From NCBI RefSeq assembly GCF_025685395.1, contig NZ_JAGSYA010000003.1, positions 434,001-498,000 on the forward strand: a stretch of 64,000 nucleotides of DNA, read 5' to 3'. Below, in pieces: positions 14,072 to 59,933 of the stretch. The translations under genes were made by a program, and so were the position numbers. The stretch is from Terriglobus tenax (GTDB lineage Bacteria > Acidobacteriota > Terriglobia > Terriglobales > Acidobacteriaceae). The notes beneath the pieces are model-generated. The model ran no database searches. It had not been told where the DNA came from and was given only the letters and a program-made list of their open reading frames with translations. Every line of letters starts with the position of its first letter. Position 1 is the stretch's first letter.

Positions 14072-15308
14072 CAATACGTATCTGATCGCCAGGCGCGAGT
14101 ACCTGGAACGTGTACGCACCAAGGCGTTCCTGGTGACGACCATGCTGATTCCGCTGCTGATGGGCGGTGGGTTGTTGTTCAGCGTGCTGAAGTCAAGGCA
14201 TGCGAAGTCGGCTTCGCACATCACTGTTGTTTCGACGGACACCGACCTGGCGCTGGCGTTGCAGGACGAACTGGAGCATGGCAAGGACTCTGCCATGGAG
14301 GTGGATGTAATCTCGCCGCCAAGCGGGAATACGCGCAAGGCCGTAGTAGATGAGACGGTGGACAAGCAGATTGACGGCTTCCTGTGGATTGAGATGAAGG
14401 ATGGCCGTCCGAAGGCGACGTACACCTCCATGAGCACCGGCGATATCTCGACCGCACAGACGCTGGAAAGCGCACTGCGGCGCGCGGCCATGCGCGAAGG
14501 CATGCAGCACAAGGGCATGGAGGCGGGCGAGATCAAGGCCATGATGGAGCCGGTTGAGGTGGAAGCCGAGACGATCAAGAACGGCGAGATCTCGAAGTCG
14601 GACACGGTGACGGCCTTCTTCGGCGCGTACATTTTGTTCTTCCTGATGTATATGGCCGTGATGCTGCATGGCATGAACGTAGCGCGCAGCATTATTGAAG
14701 AGAAGACATCGCGCGTGTTTGAGGTGATGCTGGCCACGGTGAAGCCGCAGGAGATGATGACCGGCAAGCTGCTGGGCGTGGGCGCGGTAGGCCTGACGCA
14801 GATCGGTATCTGGGTAGCGGCGGCGCTGGCGCTGACGGCTCCGCAGGTGGCCGGTGCGGTGGGCGCTGGAGCGGTGCACATCAGCTTTTCGCTGGGGCAG
14901 ATAGTGGCCTTTATCGGCTACTTCGTGATGGGCTTCCTGCTGTACTCCGGCATTGCGGCAGCGATTGGCGCGATGGTGAACTCCGAACAGGAACTGCAGC
15001 AGTTCAACATGGTGATCGCCATGCCGATGGCGGTGTGCATGTTTGTGCTGGTGCCGGTGATCTCGAATCCAAACTCAACCTTTTCACGCGTGATGAGTTT
15101 GATTCCGACCTGCACGCCATTGCTGATGTACCTGCGGATCGCTATCTCAAATCCGCCGTGGTATGACATTGCGGCATCGGTGGTGATTCTGCTGGCGACG
15201 ATCTACGGCGTGCTTTGGCTGACGGCGCGGATCTATCGCGTAGGCATTCTGATGTATGGCAAGCGGCCCACGCTGCCGGAGATTATCAAGTGGCTGAAAT
15301 ACAGCTAG
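14064..15308 (+). CDS. ABC transporter permease (NatB-like, ABC2_membrane_3 type)
   Basis: A 414-residue permease with one N-terminal membrane helix (residues about 18-38), a large extracytoplasmic domain of about 150 residues, then five to six C-terminal helices (FFGAYILFFLMYMAVML onward), the layout of NatB. IARREYLERVRTKAF before the first helix is the family coupling segment. GGAGGG lies seven bases before the ATG at 14064, favouring it over the ATG at 14058. The start overlaps the last eight bases of the ATPase gene. The stop TAG lies in a CTAG followed by a GGATGG-box element. Confidence 0.88.
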   Translation: MPSNTYLIARREYLERVRTKAFLVTTMLIPLLMGGGLLFSVLKSRHAKSASHITVVSTDTDLALALQDELEHGKDSAMEVDVISPPSGNTRKAVVDETVDKQIDGFLWIEMKDGRPKATYTSMSTGDISTAQTLESALRRAAMREGMQHKGMEAGEIKAMMEPVEVEAETIKNGEISKSDTVTAFFGAYILFFLMYMAVMLHGMNVARSIIEEKTSRVFEVMLATVKPQEMMTGKLLGVGAVGLTQIGIWVAAALALTAPQVAGAVGAGAVHISFSLGQIVAFIGYFVMGFLLYSGIAAAIGAMVNSEQELQQFNMVIAMPMAVCMFVLVPVISNPNSTFSRVMSLIPTCTPLLMYLRIAISNPPWYDIAASVVILLATIYGVLWLTARIYRVGILMYGKRPTLPEIIKWLKYS

Positions 15309-36231: not shown

Positions 36232-36328
36232 CGCGTTGCAAAAGATGGGTGTGCCGCTTTGCCTCGGAACAAGGCTGGCGCGCCCGCAGGGGTCCGAAGC
36301 AAACACACACGGTGCTTCGGGCAAACAC

Positions 36329-36371
36329 AACAGGTGGAACAGGCTGCCCTCACAGTCCTGTTCCACCTGTT
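36329..36371. terminator. Terminator between piuC-like operon and fasciclin gene
   Basis: A 15-bp perfect stem (AACAGGTGGAACAGG and its complement) with a 13-base loop between convergent genes. The outer A- and T-rich bases allow use from both sides. Confidence 0.8.
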
Positions 36372-36383
36372 TGTGCGTTCAGG

Positions 36384-36938
36384 CTAGTTGGGCATTACGA
36401 CGGTGTCGATGACGTGAATGACTCCGTTCTTCTGGAAGACATCGGCGGTGGTGACGGTGGCCATGCCGCCCTTTTCATCGGTCAGAACGACCTTGCCACC
36501 CTCCAGCGAGGCGGTCAGAGTTCCGCCCTGCACGGTCTTCATGGCGTATTTGCCACCGCTCTTCTTGATCATGGCGACGAGTTGTTTTGAGCTGATTCTG
36601 CCAGGAACGACGTGGTAGGTCAGGATCTTGACCAGGGTGGCCTTGTTCTCCGGCTTGACCAGGGTGTCGACCGTACCCGCGGGCAGCTTGCCGAAGGCGT
36701 CATCGGTAGGAGCGAAGACGGTGAAGGGGCCGGTGCTGTTGAGCGTATCGACAAGACCGGCGGCCTTGACGGCTGCCACGAGGGTCTTATGAATGGGTGA
36801 GTTGACCGCGTTCTCAACGATGGTTTTGGTGGGATACATCGGCGCTCCGCCAACATCGGGGTCCTTCATCTGCGCCTGAGCGGTGAGCGTAAGTGCTGCG
36901 AGCGTGGTTGCGAAACAAACAGCCAGAAACTTCTTCAT
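36384..36938 (-). CDS. Exported fasciclin (FAS1) domain protein
   Basis: 184 residues: signal peptide (MKKFLAVCFATTLAALTLTAQA), then one FAS1 domain. Signature blocks H1 (TLVAAVKAAGLVDTLNSTGPFTVFAPTDDAFGKLP) and H2 (VIHVIDTVVMP), with ILTYHVVPGRI between, are complete. FAS1 proteins are extracytoplasmic adhesion or matrix proteins; partner unknown. It is convergent with the piuC-like operon and divergent from the chemoreceptor gene. Confidence 0.9.
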   Translation of the reverse strand: MKKFLAVCFATTLAALTLTAQAQMKDPDVGGAPMYPTKTIVENAVNSPIHKTLVAAVKAAGLVDTLNSTGPFTVFAPTDDAFGKLPAGTVDTLVKPENKATLVKILTYHVVPGRISSKQLVAMIKKSGGKYAMKTVQGGTLTASLEGGKVVLTDEKGGMATVTTADVFQKNGVIHVIDTVVMPN

Positions 36939-37132
36939 GCGGGTCTATCCTTCCGGGGAAGCGGCCTTTATGGCGCGTCCATGCGAAGGACGAGATGAGG
37001 TGGGGATGCGGATTGCTGCTGTGCCCTTTCCGGTTGCACCACGTGAACAGAATCGGCCTATCTTTGCGTGATAGTTCCATGTACAGCGTTCTGAATTGGG
37101 CCCTCTGGTTTCCCGTGTCGTAAGTGCGCGGC

Positions 37133-37159
37133 TCAACTCCGTTACCTTCGTGCCGATAG
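37133..37159 (+). promoter_or_regulatory. Sigma-28 (FliA)-like promoter of the chemoreceptor gene
   Basis: TCAACTCC, an 11-base spacer and GCCGATAG match the flagellar sigma-28 consensus TAAAGTTT-N11-GCCGATAA: seven of eight at the -10 and the exact spacing, with a weak -35. It lies 38 bases before the ATG at 37197, the right place to drive it. Confidence 0.6.
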
Positions 37160-37196
37160 AAGGAGTGACCTGCGGATTTCTCCACACGGCGGAGCC

Positions 37197-38708
37197 ATGA
37201 AACTACAGACGAAGATCATATCCATCTCACTTGGCGGCGTCCTCTTGACGACCGTCGGCGGTATTTTTGTCCAGATGTCGATCATCCGGCAGCAGGGAAT
37301 TACCATGCTGCGCGACTCGATGCGGGCCACGATTCTTGGCGCTGAGAACACGCGCCAGTCGGTTTCGAACATGCGGCGGGAGCATATGTTCGATGACAAG
37401 TCGCTGAAGGAAGAGGCACTTACCGCGACGGATTACCGGCAGACGCGACTTTACCAAACGGTGCCGGTGGTGGCGGCATGGACTGCTCTGCGGGAGGTCG
37501 CCACCAAGGAGGGGCTGAAGTTCCGTGTGCCGGCCAGCCATCCGCGCAACCCGAAGAATGCCGCGGATGAGACCGAGCAGCGCATTCTGGCAGCGGTGGA
37601 GTCTGGCGAGCAGCCCGAATTTTTCGAGGTGGATGAAAAGAACAACGAAGCCATTTATGCGCGGCCGATCACGCTGACGCAGGATTGCCTGTTCTGCCAC
37701 GGCAGCCCGGCTACAAGCCCTTCCGGCAATGGCAAGGACATGCTGGGCTTCCCGATGGAGGGATGGAAGGCAGGAGACCGTCACGGCGCGTTTGTGCTGC
37801 GGTCAAACCTTGCCGGCGTGGATACGCTGGCGCACGACAGCATTCTGAAGACGCTGATGTGGATCGTTCCGCTGGCCAGCCTGGTGGGTGTTGCGATCTA
37901 TCTGATTCTTGCGCGGGTGAGCTATCGGCTGCGGGAGATGGTGCAGGAACTGACGACAGGCTCGGAACAGGTAAGTACGGCGGTACAGCAGATTGCGCAA
38001 TCCAACCAGTCGCTGGCGCAGGGAACCACGATGCAGGCTTCGTCGCTGGAAGACACTTCGCGGGCGGCTTCGTCGGTGAGCGCGGCTGCGGATGGAGCGT
38101 GCCGGAACTCGGAGCAGGCGGCCGAGGAGATGCAGGGCGTCGATGAGAAGGTCCGTCAGGGAAGCAACGCGCTCAAGGAGATGGAAGCCTCCATGACCGA
38201 CATCCAGAGCTCGAGCGAGAAGATCCAGACGACGATCCGGGTGATTGATGAGATCGCCTTCCAGACACACATTCTGGCCCTGAATGCTGCCGTAGAGGCC
38301 GCGCGTGCAGGAGAGACGGGTGTGGGCTTCGCCGTGGTGGCCGAGGAGGTGCGGAACCTGGCTGAGCGCTCGGCGCAGGCGGCGCGCGATACGGCTCCCC
38401 TGATCCGGGAGTCGATTGCACGCAGCAACGATGGCAGCGCCCGGATGCAGCAGATGATCTCAGTCATCGGGGGCATTACCGAGAGCTCAGCCCGGGCCCG
38501 TACCCTGGTGGAGGAGGTAAGCTCCGGCAGTCGCCAGCAGGCGGGAGAGATGGTGCAGATCACCCGGGCGATCCAGGGAATGCAGGATGTGACCCAGGGC
38601 AATGCCGCCTTCTCCGAGCAGACGGCAGCTGCAAGTGAAGAGCTTTCGGCACAGGCGGAGGCGATGAACGCCGTCGCTCACCGGTTGGCAAAGATCGTGG
38701 AAGGTTGA
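37197..38708 (+). CDS. Methyl-accepting chemotaxis protein with DUF3365 heme-binding sensor
   Basis: A 503-residue chemoreceptor. TM1 is residues 7-28, the periplasmic DUF3365 (Tll0287-like) domain spans about 30-215 and TM2 is 220-240. The sensor carries CLFCH at residues 164-168, a CxxCH c-type heme motif, so it may sense redox state, oxygen or NO. The cytoplasmic signalling domain (about 255-503) has the methyl-accepting hairpin with the tip segment [30 protein letters not shown]. There is no evident HAMP domain. Transcription from a sigma-28-like promoter would tie it to motility. No che genes are adjacent. Confidence 0.92.
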
Positions 38709-38720
38709 ACCAGAGGGCCA

Positions 38721-38762
38721 AACAGGCACGCGCTCACCAGACGGGGTGAACGCGTGTCTGTT
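38721..38762 (+). terminator. Long hairpin after the chemoreceptor gene
   Basis: AACAGGCACGCGCTCACC and its near complement form a stem of about 17 bp with two imperfections and a five-base loop. It starts 12 bases after the stop. It lacks a T run. The GTG at 38754 lies inside it, which argues against that start for the next gene. Confidence 0.55.
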
Positions 38763-38828
38763 AAGCAATACAGTTTGACAGTTCGGCGGCCTTGCCTCGA
38801 AGCTGTGAAGACAGGCCATCCCATACGA

Positions 38829-39323
38829 ATGAACGCCGCGCAGTCCAATCCTTCCAAAAAACACCACGACTCGGGTCTGCTGCTGATTGGCATTATCCGG
38901 GTGCTGGAGGCGGCGCTTTCGGTGGCCGTTGGCCTCGGGGTCCTGCATTTCCTGAATAAAGACCTGAACGACGAGCTGACCAGCCTGGTCCATTACCTTC
39001 ATTTGAATGAAGACGGCCACCTGGTTTCCGTTCTGTTCGACAAGATCGACCTGATTGACAATCACCGGCTGAAGCAGATCGGCGCCTCGGCGTTTGCCTA
39101 TGGCGCGCTGAAGCTGATTGAGGGCGTCGGCCTGGTGAAGGAACAGGTTTGGGCTGAGTATCTTACCGTCATTGCCAGCCTGATCTTCCTGCCCTGGGAG
39201 ATCTATGAGCTGCTGCGCCACCCCAACATCTGGAGGCTGGGTATCCTGCTGGGGAACCTGCTGATTGTGGCGTACCTGCTATGGACGCTGGCGCGGATGC
39301 GGCGGCGGAAGCAGCAGGATTAG
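38829..39323 (+). CDS. DUF2127 membrane protein
   Basis: About 164 residues with four hydrophobic segments (LLLIGIIRVLEAALSVAVGLGVLHF, AFAYGALKLIEGVGL, YLTVIASLIFLPWEIYEL, LGILLGNLLIVAYLLWTL) and a conserved positively charged loop, as in DUF2127. Function unknown. The frame can be extended to a GTG at 38754, but that codon sits inside the hairpin ending the chemoreceptor transcript, so the ATG at 38829 is preferred. The C terminus is strongly basic (RMRRRKQQD). Confidence 0.75.
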   Translation: MNAAQSNPSKKHHDSGLLLIGIIRVLEAALSVAVGLGVLHFLNKDLNDELTSLVHYLHLNEDGHLVSVLFDKIDLIDNHRLKQIGASAFAYGALKLIEGVGLVKEQVWAEYLTVIASLIFLPWEIYELLRHPNIWRLGILLGNLLIVAYLLWTLARMRRRKQQD

Positions 39324-39670
39324 GTGAAAAACAGCGACTTTCGCCTAATTTTCGCCTACTACAGAATTCCTCTGATGCGCCACCCCCTGAACCGGTTTTC
39401 TAAACACTACATATAGGGGGATACCTTTTGATTACCCCCACAGCGTGAGTTTTCCACAGGCCGTGGCAGAAGACCCTCTGTTTTCCGCAATTTAGGGACT
39501 TGTATTCAGGCAACTTCTAAGCGATTCTGTGGCTCGAAGTGGTAAGAAGTGGAGCAAAAGGGATTCAGGTTGTAAGGATGGCTTGATTCTATCTCCCAAG
39601 TGGAAGCGAACGGCAAGATTCGCACCGTAACCAACTTGGGGCCCACCGGTTTTGCTGGGGTACAGGTCGC
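39324..39670. other. Leader region of the dcw cluster
   Basis: 347 bases without a gene. It contains the paired motif TTTCGCC-N4-TTTCGCC at 39339-39356, also seen at 9739-9756, and the three MraZ-box-like heptamers at 39536-39562. A GGGGG ... CCCCC pair around 39416-39440 could form a small hairpin. No convincing sigma-70 -35/-10 pair was found by eye. Confidence 0.5.
39536..39562 (+). promoter_or_regulatory. Predicted MraZ operator (three heptamer boxes)
   Basis: GAAGTGG-TAA-GAAGTGG-AGC-AAAAGGG: three 7-base boxes at exact 10-base steps. This matches the AAAGTGG-N3 direct-repeat operators described for MraZ upstream of its own gene. It lies 108 bases before the mraZ ATG. Confidence 0.65.
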
Positions 39671-40111
39671 ATGTTTCGTGGAAATCATCCAGCTCGCGTG
39701 GACGAGAAGGGGAGGCTGAAGCTTCCCGCTGAGTTCATGCGCCGCGCGAAGGATGTGTACGGCGACCAGTTCTACATCACCAGCAAAGATGGCAAGCGGG
39801 CGGAGATTTACCCGCTGAAGGAGTGGGAAAAGATTGAGGAGAAGCTTGCGGGCATCCCCTCCATGAATCCCGCGAAGAAGAAGTTTCTGGACGTGACGAA
39901 CTATTACGGCCAGATGGCGCAGATGGACGAGCAGGGACGTGTGTTGATCCCCGCCATTCTGCGGACGGCAGCGAATGTGAAGGGTGAGGTTGTGGTTCTT
40001 GGATCGCAGACCTACCTGGAGCTGGTGAACCACGACGCCTTCAAGGCGGAACTGGAAGCCCAGCCGCTCACGATGGAAGACCAGGCTGCCCTGGCGGATC
40101 TCGGGCTCTAG
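39671..40111 (+). CDS. mraZ: Transcriptional regulator MraZ
   Basis: A 146-residue protein with two SpoVT-AbrB-like swapped-hairpin domains: MFRGNHPARVDEKGRLKLPAEFM at the start and YYGQMAQMDEQGRVLIPAILR at about residue 76. MraZ forms a ring-shaped oligomer and represses its own cluster in E. coli and activates it in Mycoplasma. It is first gene of the dcw cluster. Its probable operator is at 39536-39562. The stop is followed after 23 bases by rsmH. Confidence 0.96.
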   Translation: MFRGNHPARVDEKGRLKLPAEFMRRAKDVYGDQFYITSKDGKRAEIYPLKEWEKIEEKLAGIPSMNPAKKKFLDVTNYYGQMAQMDEQGRVLIPAILRTAANVKGEVVVLGSQTYLELVNHDAFKAELEAQPLTMEDQAALADLGL

Positions 40112-54646: not shown

Positions 54647-55846
54647 ATGACCGAGTTTGTCATCAAGTTAGCCGACGAGCGCGGCCGTGTGCAGGAGCAG
54701 GTTCATGCCGCCGCCACGGCGGAGGAACTGCGTCTGCGGTTTGCCCAGGCCGGATATCTGGTGTATTCGGTCAAACCGCGGTCGGTGCTGGCCTCTGGCC
54801 GCAAGAAAAAGATCAAGCTGGATATCTTTTTGATCTTCAACCAGCAGTTTTTGACGCTGATCCGTGCCGGTTTGCCGATTCTTGGCTCGCTGGACCTGTT
54901 GACCGCTGGGCAGAAGGACCTGAATCTGAAGGCGCAACTTGAGGATGTAGCTGCGCGGGTCAGGACGGGAGAGTCGCTGTCCACGGCGTTTGAGGCGCAG
55001 ACCGGGGTTCCGATTATCTATACGACGACGCTGCTGGCGGGCGAACGCTCCGGCAACCTGGAAGAGGTGCTGCAGCGATTTGTGGACTTCCAGCGGATGT
55101 CGCTGAGCTTTACCAAGAAGCTGCGTTCGGCGCTGGTGTATCCCATTGTGCTGGTGCTGATGGTTGTCGCCATCATGATCTTCCTGCTGACCTTTGTGAT
55201 TCCGCGCTTTTCAGAGCTGTATGAGCAGCTAAATACGCCGCTGCCGGGAATCACGGTCTTTCTGCTGGACCTGGGAAAGAAGGCGCAGACCTATGGAATT
55301 TATGTCGCGCTAGCCTTTGCGGCTGGGGCATATGTGTTCTTCCGCTGGTTGAAGACCGATACCGGCAATGCCCTGGTGGACAAGGTGCGTATCCGGCTGC
55401 CGCTGGCCGGCCCGGTGTGGCTGAAGTACCAGGTGGCTCTGTTCTCCCGGACTCTGTCGACGCTGTTGACCGGCGGTTTGCCGCTGGTTCCGGCGCTGGA
55501 GACAGCGGCCAAGTCGATCAACAGCCGCCAGACGGCGATGGCGGTCTATGCCTCGGTTGGTTCGGTTCGAGAGGGTAAGGGGCTGGCGGTTTCCCTGCGT
55601 GGGACGAAGATTTTTCCTGACCTGGCGACGGAGATGATTGAGGTGGGCGAGTCGACGGGCGCGCTGCCGGCGATGTTGAACTCGGTGGCGGAGTTTTTTG
55701 AGGAAGATGTGCAGCTTTCCCTGTCGGCCGCGATGAGCCTGATTGAGCCGATTCTTCTGGTCTTTATGGGTATCGTGATTGCCGTTATTCTTATCTCGCT
55801 CTACCTGCCGATCTTCTCGCTGGGTGCGGGCGGAATGGGGCAGTAA
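54647..55846 (+). CDS. Type II secretion / type IV pilus inner-membrane platform protein (GspF/PilC family)
   Basis: A 399-residue protein with two T2SSF domains (about residues 68-190 and 270-390), each cytoplasmic, separated by membrane helices at about 170-190, 215-235 and 370-395. Typical segments: FNQQFLTLIRAGLPILGSLDLL and LFSRTLSTLLTGGLPLVPALETAA (duplicated motif), ending in ILLVFMGIVIAVILISLYLPIF. First gene of a seven-gene operon with the ATPase next. Confidence 0.92.
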   Translation: MTEFVIKLADERGRVQEQVHAAATAEELRLRFAQAGYLVYSVKPRSVLASGRKKKIKLDIFLIFNQQFLTLIRAGLPILGSLDLLTAGQKDLNLKAQLEDVAARVRTGESLSTAFEAQTGVPIIYTTTLLAGERSGNLEEVLQRFVDFQRMSLSFTKKLRSALVYPIVLVLMVVAIMIFLLTFVIPRFSELYEQLNTPLPGITVFLLDLGKKAQTYGIYVALAFAAGAYVFFRWLKTDTGNALVDKVRIRLPLAGPVWLKYQVALFSRTLSTLLTGGLPLVPALETAAKSINSRQTAMAVYASVGSVREGKGLAVSLRGTKIFPDLATEMIEVGESTGALPAMLNSVAEFFEEDVQLSLSAAMSLIEPILLVFMGIVIAVILISLYLPIFSLGAGGMGQ

Positions 55847-55877
55847 ACACTTGGCAGGAAACGGAGTCCAATAGACC

Positions 55878-57524
55878 ATGGCACAAGCCCCCATCGCGAT
55901 CCCGCTGCCTGCGGCGAATGGCCTGGAATTGAATGAGGTGGAGCGCGCGCAGATGCTGGCGCGGCGCTATCACGCCGAGTTTGTGGATCTGAAAAACTTC
56001 AAGATTCAGCATGAGCTGTTTCGCACGGTGCCGGTGGAACTGATGTTCCGCTACAACTTCGTTCCGCTGGAGCAGAAGACGGATGGCCGGCTGGTGATTG
56101 CGGTAAGCGATCCGTCGAAGCTGATGGTGCTGGACGAGGTTGCCTCCCTGCTTTCGGCAAGGCTGATTGCGCGTGTCGCGACACTGTCGCAGATTACCGA
56201 CCTGCTGAAGAAGAATGAGCAGTCGCAGCGCGTGCTGGAAGAGGCCAGCGAGGGGCTGACCTTCGACGTGATCTCGCTGGAAGACAACCCGGACGAGAAC
56301 ATCTCCATTGAGAAGCTGACCAGCGAGGAAGATATCTCGCCGATTATCCGCCTGGTGGATACGACGATCTTCACCGCGCTGGAGCGGCGTGCTTCGGATA
56401 TTCACCTGGAGACGTACGACGACTCGCTTCTGGTGAAGTACCGTATCGATGGTGTGTTGACACAGGCCATGGCTCCGATTGCACGCGAGCATCACCAGAC
56501 GATCCTGTCGCGTATCAAGGTCATGAGCGAACTGGATATTGCCGAGCGGCGCGTGCCGCAGGATGGCCGCTTCCGGGTGCGTTACAAGGGGCGCCTGATC
56601 GATTTCCGCGTGTCCATTATGCCGACGGTGCATGGCGAGAATGCCGTGCTTCGCGTGCTGGACAAGGAGTCGATGAGCGAAAAGTTCACCAAGCTGAGCC
56701 TGGATGTCGTGGGCTTTGGTGAAGAGGATCTCCGCCGTTTCCGCCGCTACATCAAGGAGCCGTACGGCATGGTGCTGGTGACCGGTCCGACGGGTTCCGG
56801 CAAGACGACGACGCTTTACGCCGCATTGAACGAGATCAAGAGCGAAGAAGACAAGATCATCACGATCGAGGACCCGGTCGAGTACCAGATCCGTGGCATC
56901 ACGCAGATCCCGGTCAATGAGAAGAAGGGGTTGACCTTTGCCCGCGGTCTGCGTTCGATTCTGCGTCATGACCCGGACAAGATCCTGGTGGGCGAAATCC
57001 GCGATGCGGAGACGGCGCAGATTGCCATCAACTCGGCGCTGACGGGTCACCTGGTGTTTACGACGGTCCACGCGAACAATGTGGTGGACGTGCTGGGCCG
57101 CTTCCTGAATATGGGCGTGGAGCCGTATAACTTCGTCTCGGCGTTGAACTGTATCCTGGCGCAGCGCCTGGTTCGCCAGATCTGCGACTTCTGCGCACAC
57201 TTTGTCACCTATGACGATGAAACTCTGATCCAGAGCGGCCTGGAGCCGGAGGAGTGGCGCGGGTTCCGTTTCCGCGAGGGAGCGGGATGCATGGAGTGCG
57301 GTGGCACCGGCTTCCGCGGGCGTTCCGCGATTCATGAGCTGCTGGAGCTGGATGACGAGATCCGTGAGATGCTGCTGGCCAAGAAACCGGGTTCGGAGAT
57401 TCGCAAGGTGGCCGGGAATAAAGGTATGGCGTTTCTGCGTGACTCAGCCCTGCAACGCGTGCGTGCCGGTATTACTACCTTGAAGGAGATCAACAAGGTA
57501 ACCTTTATCGAGGCGACCCGGTAA
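55878..57524 (+). CDS. Assembly ATPase GspE/PilB family
   Basis: A 548-residue hexameric ATPase that drives (pseudo)pilus assembly. The N-terminal GSPII_E_N domain covers residues about 25-110. The core has RRASDIHLE, Walker A GPTGSGKTTTLY, the Asp box (IITIEDPVEYQI), Walker B LVGEIRDAETA, the His box TGHLVFTTVHANN and the zinc tetracysteine CDFC ... CMEC typical of GspE/PilB. It lies 31 bases after the platform gene; 11 bases separate it from the PilM-like gene. Confidence 0.94.
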   Translation: MAQAPIAIPLPAANGLELNEVERAQMLARRYHAEFVDLKNFKIQHELFRTVPVELMFRYNFVPLEQKTDGRLVIAVSDPSKLMVLDEVASLLSARLIARVATLSQITDLLKKNEQSQRVLEEASEGLTFDVISLEDNPDENISIEKLTSEEDISPIIRLVDTTIFTALERRASDIHLETYDDSLLVKYRIDGVLTQAMAPIAREHHQTILSRIKVMSELDIAERRVPQDGRFRVRYKGRLIDFRVSIMPTVHGENAVLRVLDKESMSEKFTKLSLDVVGFGEEDLRRFRRYIKEPYGMVLVTGPTGSGKTTTLYAALNEIKSEEDKIITIEDPVEYQIRGITQIPVNEKKGLTFARGLRSILRHDPDKILVGEIRDAETAQIAINSALTGHLVFTTVHANNVVDVLGRFLNMGVEPYNFVSALNCILAQRLVRQICDFCAHFVTYDDETLIQSGLEPEEWRGFRFREGAGCMECGGTGFRGRSAIHELLELDDEIREMLLAKKPGSEIRKVAGNKGMAFLRDSALQRVRAGITTLKEINKVTFIEATR

Positions 57525-57535
57525 ATCATCGACGC

Positions 57536-58546
57536 ATGTCATTTCTTTCCAAGTTGAGTGGTACCTATCAGCGACCTCGCCTGGCAGCGGAGTTGCGGAC
57601 GCGGTCTGTGGTTGCGGCTGCGGCCGACGCTACGACGGAGCCGTTGCGCGCTGTGGCTCAGGCGGCGCTGGCCGAGGGTGCTTTGACGCCTTCGCTCAGG
57701 ATTCCGAATCTTGCTGACCGTGTGGCGGTCGCATCGGCGCTGCGTTCCGCGCTGGAGCGTGTGGCCACGCAGTCGCGCGATGTGACCCTTGTAATTCCTG
57801 ATGCGACGGCACGCGTGGTGTTGCTGGACTTTGACGTGATGCCTTCGAAGTCAGAGGATGCCGACAGCGTGGTGCGCTTCCGGTTGAAGCGCATGTTGCC
57901 GTTTGACGCGGACACGGCCGCGGTGAGCTACCAGGTGATGAACGAGACGAGGGGCAGCGTGAGTGTACTGGCGGTTGCCATGCCTGCGGATCTTCGTAAT
58001 GAGTACGAGCAGGCTGTACGTGAGGCCGGTTATGAGCCGGGAGCCATGCTGCCCTCGTCGCTGGCTGCCGTGGCGTCGCTTGATCCGGCTGACCCGAAGC
58101 CGCAGCTTCTGCTGAATATTGATGAGTCCAGCATGACCACGGCCATTGTGAAGGGTGGTGTGCTGGTGCTGTACCGTACGGTTGAGTTTGCCCACATGGA
58201 GGCACTTGCGGCAGAGCCTGCTCCGGTGGCTGAAGACCCGACCTCGGCGCTGGCCGCGATGCAGGCGGATGTGCTGCTGGCGGAGGTGGAGCACCTGAGC
58301 CAGACGGATGAGATTGCTCGCGCGATCTCTGTCTCGACCGCATATTTTGAGGACACGCAGGGAGCTCTGCCGGACGAGATTCTGGTTGCCGGCAGCTGGC
58401 CTTCGAGCGAGCTGGAAAGAATCGCCGTAGCCACGGTTGGCGACGGCATGAAGCTGCGCGAGATTGTTCGGGTGGAAGATCTGCTGACGACACCTTCGGT
58501 GGCCCGCAATCTTCTGGCCGGTGTGAGAGGAGCTCTGAAGGGCTGA
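57536..58546 (+). CDS. PilM/GspL-like actin-fold pilus assembly protein
   Basis: A 336-residue cytoplasmic protein related to PilM or the N-terminal part of GspL. Visible parts are VTLVIPDATARVVLLDFDVMPSKSEDADSVVRFRLKRMLPFDADTAAVSYQV, an actin-like subdomain pattern, and LLLNIDESSMTTAIVKGGVLVLYRTVEF. The normal PilM N-terminal LGIDIGSSSVK motif is not clear, so this is a divergent member. No membrane segment, so it needs the next protein (PilN-like) to be anchored. The stop overlaps the next start (TGATG). Confidence 0.78.
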   Translation: MSFLSKLSGTYQRPRLAAELRTRSVVAAAADATTEPLRAVAQAALAEGALTPSLRIPNLADRVAVASALRSALERVATQSRDVTLVIPDATARVVLLDFDVMPSKSEDADSVVRFRLKRMLPFDADTAAVSYQVMNETRGSVSVLAVAMPADLRNEYEQAVREAGYEPGAMLPSSLAAVASLDPADPKPQLLLNIDESSMTTAIVKGGVLVLYRTVEFAHMEALAAEPAPVAEDPTSALAAMQADVLLAEVEHLSQTDEIARAISVSTAYFEDTQGALPDEILVAGSWPSSELERIAVATVGDGMKLREIVRVEDLLTTPSVARNLLAGVRGALKG

Positions 58547-59289
58547 TGCGTATTCAGATCAATCTCGCGTCGCGGCCGTTTGTGGAGCTTGGGCCGGTCT
58601 TCAAGCGGCTGCGCATAGCCATGGCCGCGCTGGGTGTACTGGCGGTGGTGCTGGGCGGTTTGCTGTATCTGGAGTCCGCAAAGGCGGACAAAGCCGAAAC
58701 GGAACTGGCGAAGCTGCGTAATCACACGTCTGACCTGCAGCGTGAGCGCAGCCGCAATGAGTCCCGGATGCATCAGCCTGTGAATGCGGCGGCGCTGGAG
58801 CGGTCGCGCTTCCTGAACGACCTGTTCCTGCGCAAGGGGTTCAGCTGGACGGCCGTGATGATGGACCTGGAGAATGTGCTTCCGGCCGGTGTGCAGGTGT
58901 CGTCGATTGAGCCGCAGATTGGCAGCGACGGCGAGGTGCATATTCGCCTGCGTGTGCTGGGCGATCGCGATAAGGCGGTGGACCTGGTGCGCAACCTGGA
59001 GCATTCGCGTCGCTTTGCGGGACCGAGGCTGGCGAGTGAGTCCCTGCAGACCAGCGGCAACCAGCCGGCATTTCAGATGGCGGCGATGGGCAACGTGGAG
59101 TTCGATATTCTTTCCGGCTATAACCCGCTGGCTCCTCGCACGGAGGCGAAAAAGGACGAGCAGGGCAATGCTCCAAAGCTGGAGAAGCCAGGTTCGCATG
59201 CGCCTGTGAAGCCACGCGTGACCTCGCCGTCGAAACCGGCAGCGAAGAACGCAGTGGCTCCGGCGAAGAAGGGAGCGGCGAAACGATGA
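58546..59289 (+). CDS. PilN-like pilus assembly protein
   Basis: A 247-residue bitopic protein: short cytoplasmic N terminus with the PilM-binding INLASRPFVEL motif (residues 4-14), a membrane helix (about 25-45), a coiled coil (KADKAETELAKLRNHTSDLQRERSRNE), a ferredoxin-like periplasmic domain (FSWTAVMMDLENVLPAGVQVSSIEPQI) and a Lys/Pro/Ala-rich tail. It overlaps the preceding gene by one base and the next by ATGA. The tail is not a usual feature. Confidence 0.82.
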   Translation: MRIQINLASRPFVELGPVFKRLRIAMAALGVLAVVLGGLLYLESAKADKAETELAKLRNHTSDLQRERSRNESRMHQPVNAAALERSRFLNDLFLRKGFSWTAVMMDLENVLPAGVQVSSIEPQIGSDGEVHIRLRVLGDRDKAVDLVRNLEHSRRFAGPRLASESLQTSGNQPAFQMAAMGNVEFDILSGYNPLAPRTEAKKDEQGNAPKLEKPGSHAPVKPRVTSPSKPAAKNAVAPAKKGAAKR

Positions 59290-59933
59290 GCACTCCTGCC
59301 GTAACTCCGAATGTCATGACGCGCCGTGTCGCGGCTGCATTGACTCCGCTGAACCTGCATGTCGCGGGTGTGATGGTGCTGGTCGCCGTGAATCTTTACC
59401 TGGCGGTACACCTGTTTTTCTCGTGGAACACACTTCGCCAGAGCAGCGGTGAGGCGGTATCGCAACAGCAGGTAGCGTTGAAGACCGCCGACATTGCCGC
59501 GCAGCCCTTGCGTGGATTGGACGACAAACTGGCGAAATCGCGCGAGGAAGCGGACAAGTTTGCCGTGGAGCGTTTGCCGTATGCGTATTCGGCTGTTGCC
59601 GCCGAGCTTGGCTTGCTGGCCAAAAAGCAGAATGTGCGCCTGACGCGTGTGCAGTACTCGCCAACCGATGCCGCGGATGCGCCTGATCCTGACCTGACCG
59701 AGGTCCGCCTGGATGCTACGCTTTCCGGCGACTACCGTCCGCTGGTGCAGTTTGTGAACTCGTTGGAGCGCGATAAAACCTTCTTCCTGATTGGCGCTGT
59801 GACCTTTACCGGGCAGACAGGTGGCGGGCAGAACAATTCGCCTGTCGGGTCTGTGGTGAACCTACGGTTGCGCCTGACGACGTATCTGCGGAAGCCTTTG
59901 CCGTCTGACACCAGGCAGGAGGCGAAGCGATGA
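59286..59933 (+). CDS. PilO/GspM-like pilus assembly protein
   Basis: A 215-residue bitopic protein: membrane helix at about residues 22-42 (LHVAGVMVLVAVNLYLAVHLFF), coiled segment, then a ferredoxin-like domain (VAAELGLLAKKQNVRLTRVQYSP ... LDATLSGDYRPLVQFVNSLERDKTFFLIGAVTFTG). This is the usual partner of PilN, with which it forms a heterodimer on the periplasmic side. It overlaps both neighbours by four bases (ATGA). Confidence 0.8.
   Translation: MSTPAVTPNVMTRRVAAALTPLNLHVAGVMVLVAVNLYLAVHLFFSWNTLRQSSGEAVSQQQVALKTADIAAQPLRGLDDKLAKSREEADKFAVERLPYAYSAVAAELGLLAKKQNVRLTRVQYSPTDAADAPDPDLTEVRLDATLSGDYRPLVQFVNSLERDKTFFLIGAVTFTGQTGGGQNNSPVGSVVNLRLRLTTYLRKPLPSDTRQEAKR

Follow-up and report, generated by a model that had tools for sequence, protein, structure and literature searches.

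A predicted HAMP-less c-heme chemoreceptor of Terriglobus tenax in a sigma-28-type chemotaxis regulon that appears to have lost its sigma factor and flagellar motor

The 64,000-nucleotide stretch of the Terriglobus tenax genome analyzed here (the window) encodes a 503-residue chemoreceptor (P0001; open reading frame at 37197 to 38708, forward strand) that we consider likely to be a c-heme receptor for NO or redox state, probably gained horizontally into a sigma-28 regulon that now stands without its sigma factor and motor. Domains, heme motif, gene losses, and deletion ends were computed from the assembly (4,359,123 bases, 98.41% complete). Receptors of this kind are known already; it is the stranded regulon that merits further work.

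RESULTS

Domain organization of the receptor

All features of the receptor lie on the forward strand. Its sensor domain (37305 to 37799, residues 37 to 201) matches the Pfam family PF11845 (E = 9e-23; 81.7 bits against a cut-off of 24.1), which is named Tll0287-like, was formerly DUF3365, and is now also called sCache_heme; the receptor is the sole match to this family in the whole genome. Within the domain lies CLFCH (37686 to 37700, residues 164 to 168), which its sequence and the aligned sensors suggest to be a covalent heme attachment motif. Both the domain and the motif had been named in the original prediction.

Two apparent membrane helices frame the sensor domain. The first (37215 to 37286, about residues 7 to 30) is a hydrophobic run found by eye, and the structural model has a single long helix at residues 3 to 61; the second, TM2 (37848 to 37916, about residues 218 to 240), was likewise placed by eye and falls in a helix of residues 206 to 254 in the model. 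TM2 runs straight into the signaling coiled coil, where NCBIfam models of E. coli-type MCPs first match at residues 233 to 245. Pfam listed no HAMP domain in the receptor up to an E value of 1, in keeping with the earlier statement that none is evident between TM2 and the signaling domain, and it found no PAS domain in the receptor. The MCP signaling domain (MCPsignal, PF00015; 38139 to 38594, residues 315 to 466) matches with an E value of 1.3e-36 (126.5 bits against 34.6). The hairpin tip, which is the contact of MCPs to CheA and CheW, was located by alignment at 38244 to 38321 (residues 350 to 375). When the signaling domain is aligned with that of the 4HB MCP of the same genome, gaps occur at the C terminus only; by eye, the first methylation helix looks degenerate compared with IEETSASAEEI of the 4HB MCP, and the second is kept.

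A predicted c-heme sensor

An AlphaFold model of residues 1 to 255, built on a 12-sequence alignment (mean pLDDT 87.6, pTM 0.75), has a short helix (residues 162 to 168) at the CXXCH. Foldseek ranks Tll0287 (5b82) first with this model (E = 1.6e-7), and VIA-align gives a Z of 13.6 and an rmsd of 3.0 over 143 residues. The same structure was found among the PDB sequences (E = 6.4e-9 with a 12-sensor profile; E = 0.012 with the receptor alone). GSU0935 and GSU0582 are also among the fold matches (Z 5.7 over 75 and 5.6 over 70 residues, respectively), in a range, Z 5 to 8, that many Cache-type sensors reach and that may reflect a common arrangement only.

In the 12 aligned sensor domains (the receptor and 11 of the 12 CXXCH loci described below, L032 being omitted with an ORF that looks identical to that of L031), C164, C167, H168, M187, and H196 are invariant. 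An axial cysteine ligand is absent from the receptor, which before residue 302 has cysteines at 164 and 167 only, both in CLFCH; C302, in the signaling part, is its one other cysteine. As for cytochrome c maturation, whose absence the original prediction had named as counting against it, the genome carries CcmF/NrfE-like and CcmC-like genes: Pfam Cytochrom_C_asm gives three matches above cut-off, two of which score under the cut-offs of the NCBIfam CcmF/CcmC models. Taken together, a covalent c-type heme at CLFCH may be inferred.

Relatives and the missing HAMP domain

A scan of genome contigs returned 15 receptor-related loci. Twelve of them (L025 to L036) have CXXCH in the ORF, among them a Terriglobia MAG (L025; 53% over residues 1 to 503), and three (L037 to L039) are without it and match only from residue 218 on. 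In two of the latter, from a Desulfobacteraceae MAG (L037:3676-7818) and Desulfatirhabdium butyrativorans (L039:1413-5504), ORFs of 1380 and 1363 residues combine MCP signaling, sulfate permease, STAS, and cyclic-nucleotide-binding domains, which makes each a fusion of a chemoreceptor with a SulP-like transporter.

Pfam was run on six CXXCH relatives. HAMP is present in L028 and L034, which serve as a positive control for its detection by the same library, and absent from L025, L026 (a Verrucomicrobia record), L027, and L035 (planctomycete records). The domain is also absent from MCPs with other sensors, namely, four of the family (L041, L043, L054, and L058) and the three others of the T. tenax genome. 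Since all seven of these scanned MCPs are without HAMP, we rejected its absence as a special feature of the receptor.

A FliA-type promoter motif common to MCP genes and cheY

A sigma-28 (FliA)-type motif, TCAACTCC-N11-GCCGATAG, occupies 37133 to 37159 on the forward strand, exactly where the original prediction had put a FliA-like promoter; the gap to the receptor ATG is 37 bases and not 38, as given there. In a search of the window for TNAA-N15-GCCGATAR, the receptor site is the only match with zero mismatches, GCCGATAR alone occurring at chance level (5 found against 3.07 expected); the full E. coli FliA consensus gave no match at 3 mismatches.

Promoter scores, weighted on the E. coli FliA consensus, were computed over the 300 bases upstream of ORFs. 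The receptor upstream scores 14.5, those of the three other MCP genes score 14.0, 14.8, and 13.8, and that of cheY scores 16.0. A score of at least 13.8 is found for 4 of the 14 other che/MCP-cluster ORFs at their called starts, against 1 of 101 upstreams of other ORFs, a background drawn from six genome stretches that, with 11 che/MCP ORFs excluded, still held cheX, cheD, and neighboring ORFs of cluster 1. By Fisher's test, with the receptor itself excluded, this corresponds to a p of 2.2e-5 for the MCPs (3/3) and of 6.7e-4 for the che/MCP ORFs (4/14); five hand-picked upstreams had given 4/5 at this score (p = 5e-6), a result weakened to 4/14 with the full set. The ten other che/MCP ORFs score 9.8 to 12.3 (cheB 12.3, cheW 11.0, cheA 10.0, and cheD 9.8), and some of them probably lie inside operons. 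For cheW a score of 15.0 is obtained, but only from a re-picked start, and cheD has a 15.3 site at the 5' end of its called ORF, overlapping its start.

A search of 158,003 bases of the T. tenax genome with a pattern fitted to these sites gave 9 matches against 0.28 expected, an excess that is partly circular since the pattern was written with the sites already known. Of the nine, seven are found at che/MCP genes; an eighth falls within an ORF (window position 15004), and the last is on the minus strand between a sigma-54-type regulator and flgB. Such a site just 5' of flgB and facing away from it is seen both in T. tenax (L088:17248, minus strand; contig 4, 33248), where it points to the sigma-54-type regulator, and in the congener G128 (L091:19910, plus strand).

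The gene flgM is a usual sigma-28 target; in two flagellated congeners, G128 and G031, it lies downstream of FliA-type sites that score 16.3 and 16.5, respectively (FlgM named by Pfam with 50.2 and 51.6 bits, cut-off 25). The cheY genes of G128 and G031 are also preceded by FliA-type sites, and 3 of 18 MCP loci of other family genomes reach 13.8. None of the 11 upstreams of the relatives L025 to L035 does so (best 12.3, in L025), and the promoter is therefore not conserved with the receptor. A chance match was rejected because the other MCP genes and cheY share the site, and a sigma-70 promoter was rejected because none was found at 36300 to 39800. What had been proposed as a FliA-like promoter thus proves to be a sigma-28-class motif common to the MCP genes and cheY of this genome, and by this motif the receptor gene appears to belong to the sigma-28 chemotaxis regulon of the genus.

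The remaining chemosensory pathway

The che genes expected elsewhere in the genome were found (CheA, CheW, CheB, CheR, CheD, CheX, and CheY), with four MCPs and a single match to the CheA dimerization domain. Cluster 1, on contig 4, encodes an MCP, CheW, CheA, CheB, CheX, CheD, CheY, and CheX. Cluster 2, on contig 3 (L020:8773-13211), encodes a PAS-PAS MCP, CheR, CheD, and a protein with three CheW domains, and no CheA is among its scanned ORFs. The hairpin tip of the PAS-PAS MCP is unlike that of the receptor, whereas the cluster-1 MCP can be aligned with the receptor over both tip and coiled coil; hence, the receptor most likely signals to the single, cluster-1 CheA.

Twitching driven by PilT is not favored as an output, no PilT match above cut-off being found in the genome. 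The window itself contains, at 54647 to 59933, T2SSF beside T2SSE (with MshEN) and a T2SSM-like gene (below cut-off) nearby; this T2SSE is the best match of the genome to the PilT model, below cut-off.

A flagellar locus interrupted by an apparent deletion of about 20 kb

No FliA_WhiG match above cut-off exists in the genome: the best one (111.7 bits against 189.6) is RpoD (NCBIfam 683.9 bits, cut-off 555), whereas FliA of the congeners G031 and G128 reaches 250.5 and 257.4 bits with the same model. FlhA has no match in the genome, 4 of 14 control genomes being positive. Flg_bb_rod gives two matches only, flgB and flgC, in a model that FlgE, FlgF, and FlgK of G128 all match.

What is left is a remnant locus at 33.3 to 38.35 kb of contig 4 (C4) with flgB, flgC, fliE, fliF, fliG, fliH, and the first 172 to 175 residues of fliI; after these come the final gene of the locus and polynucleotide phosphorylase. 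The locus breaks inside fliI and restarts 24 bp on, past flgL. C4:33158-38326 aligns to G128 C1:4044999-4039746 and C4:38351-44959 to C1:4019810-4013150; the deletion ends at C4:38326 and C4:38351 join C1:4039746 and C1:4019810, between which G128 has 19.9 kb with the rest of fliI, flgE, fliR, flhB, flhA, fliA, fliN, flgF, flgG, flgI, flgM, flgK, and flgL. Names are from Pfam for the remnant rod protein, FliE, and FliG and for FlgE, FlgF, FlgK, FlhB, and the FliI ATPase of G128; from NCBIfam for FliA, FlgI, FlgL, FliF, and FliN (below its cut-off) of G128; and from PF00771 for FlhA. The distinction of flgB from flgC, as well as fliH, fliR, flgG, and polynucleotide phosphorylase, was made by eye from sequence and gene order. 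Flagellar genes and sigma factor appear, then, to have been lost in one deletion of about 20 kb.

The percent identities of the remnant genes to G031, given with those of the G128 copies, are 61.3 versus 60.4 for flgB, 55.3 versus 55.6 for flgC, 52.7 versus 56.3 for fliE, 47.2 versus 48.1 for fliF, and 59.4 versus 58.6 for fliG. Because the distance to G031 is much the same for the remnant genes and for the G128 copies, the deletion looks recent, and the lower value of fliE would fit some decay.

These results run against the motile strain of the original prediction, given the absence of FliA above cut-off and of FlhA and the deletion in the flagellar locus, and they argue against a promoter still in use, the best FliA_WhiG match being RpoD. 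The flagellar genes, whose absence had been named as a refutation, are partly there: most of the locus is gone, and flgB to part of fliI is left.

Origin of the receptor gene

Among 150 family genomes, scored with up to ten candidates each, a full-length receptor match is found in the T. tenax genome only (E threshold 1e-40), and six others match from residue 190 or later only. By blastn, the segment carrying promoter and gene (36995 to 38772) is absent from G128, which has 174 bp there and in which the fasciclin gene and the DUF2127 gene are adjacent. The GC content of the gene (0.619) does not differ from that of the window (0.607). The receptor gene was probably gained horizontally, which is the simplest reading of these comparisons, and loss in the other genomes may be the alternative. 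When window positions 36354 to 38772 were compared by blastn with the corresponding place in G148 (L077), neither the fasciclin gene nor the receptor was matched, so more than one change has taken place here in the genus.

DISCUSSION

The accessible part of PMC12889525 describes the sCache_heme family as a Cache domain with c-type heme, in which a stand-alone P. putida protein shows Cys/His ligation and redox-like behavior, and a P. azotoformans protein that has HAMP and TM helices but not the axial cysteine bound NO and formed no stable oxygen complex. By analogy with this family, and above all with the P. azotoformans NO binder, which also lacks the cysteine, we infer that the receptor is a periplasmic c-heme sensor reporting NO and/or redox state. 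As its sensor part has no cysteine beyond the CXXCH, an exchangeable or weak sixth ligand is expected, which could be water or, on reduction, Met59. With no HAMP in between, a change at the heme would pass via TM2 directly into the kinase-control coiled coil and from there to the single CheA. A recent deletion of about 20 kb would have removed fliA, flgM, flhA, and hook and other late genes, leaving the receptor and the che genes without sigma factor and flagellum; expression from the FliA-type site would presumably have been lost with them.

The domain could instead be a redox switch with His/Met ligation, like Geobacter GSU0935, and not an NO sensor, which we regard as possible though doubtful. 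The accessible part of PMC8396549 reports a His-water heme in GSU0582 and, in GSU0935, one His-water heme and one His-Met60 heme, both proteins being MCPs with HAMP. Met59 and Met64 of the receptor lie in its N-terminal helical part, like Met60 of GSU0935, and both Geobacter proteins appear in the fold matches; however, Met59 is present in 5 and Met64 in 2 of the 12 aligned sensors, and, in what is accessible of PMC12889525, the signaling member tested, without axial cysteine, acted as an NO binder.

The loss of sigma factor and motor has its own alternatives. It is unlikely, in our view, that the che pathway persists because it serves some output other than the flagellum (surface motility, c-di-GMP, or gene control), with another sigma factor reading the promoter. 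The CheA/W/B/R/D/X/Y set and four MCPs without FlhA would suit such an output, as would the family at large, where 124 of 150 genomes have the CheA domain and only 68 have FlhA; yet PilT is not matched above cut-off, no second FliA-like sigma factor is found above cut-off, and the flagellar remnants look intact too, so that intact che genes may show recent loss only. It is very unlikely that the regulon, newly gained receptor included, is still under selection, with another sigma factor reading the promoters and with CheA and CheY acting on something other than a flagellum. We also think it quite unlikely that the deletion is an assembly error, the strain possessing both flagella and FliA and using the receptor in swimming taxis. 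In favor of an error, the remnant genes are open with little sign of faster decay, FliA-type sites of good quality are preserved before the MCP genes and cheY, and three of the four other genus members in the sample (G031, G128, and G148) have FlhA and CheA, the fourth (G095) having neither; against it, C4:31000-45000 contains no N and has continuous flanks, contigs 1 and 2 together have 2,959 bases and cannot hold the segment, and FliA, FlhA, and further rod and hook proteins are unmatched anywhere in the assembly. We therefore retain the reading of a receptor and regulon left behind by a deletion.

If this reading is true, T. tenax offers a natural setting in which to ask at what rate the genes and promoters of a che regulon decay once sigma factor and motor have recently gone, and whether they acquire new outputs. 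It is also a warning that a good FliA promoter alone does not make a motile strain. The analysis would also add HAMP-less members to the c-heme Cache receptors, from Terriglobia and from Verrucomicrobia and planctomycete records, in which periplasmic heme would directly drive the kinase-control coiled coil. Among the literature listings searched for DUF3365, Tll0287, and sCache_heme, none names this receptor or a HAMP-less form; either may be in print.

Among known systems, the sCache_heme family (PF11845), as described in the accessible part of PMC12889525, shares the CXXCH and the Pfam match with the receptor, whose fold is closest to 5b82. The P. azotoformans NO binder of the same source is, like the receptor, a signaling fusion without axial cysteine, and it has the HAMP domain that the receptor lacks. 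GSU0582 and GSU0935 of Geobacter sulfurreducens (3b47 and 3b42) likewise combine periplasmic c-heme, two TM helices, and an MCP domain; they differ in having HAMP, according to the accessible part of PMC8396549, and match the receptor weakly in structure. DcrA of Desulfovibrio vulgaris, named in the same part of PMC8396549, is likewise a c-heme chemoreceptor, for redox or oxygen, but it has a cytoplasmic PAS domain, which Pfam does not find in the receptor. Finally, the HAMP-less MCPs of the family (the 4HB and orphan MCPs of T. tenax, L041, L043, L054, and L058) have other sensors and no CXXCH but share a signaling domain similar to that of the receptor.
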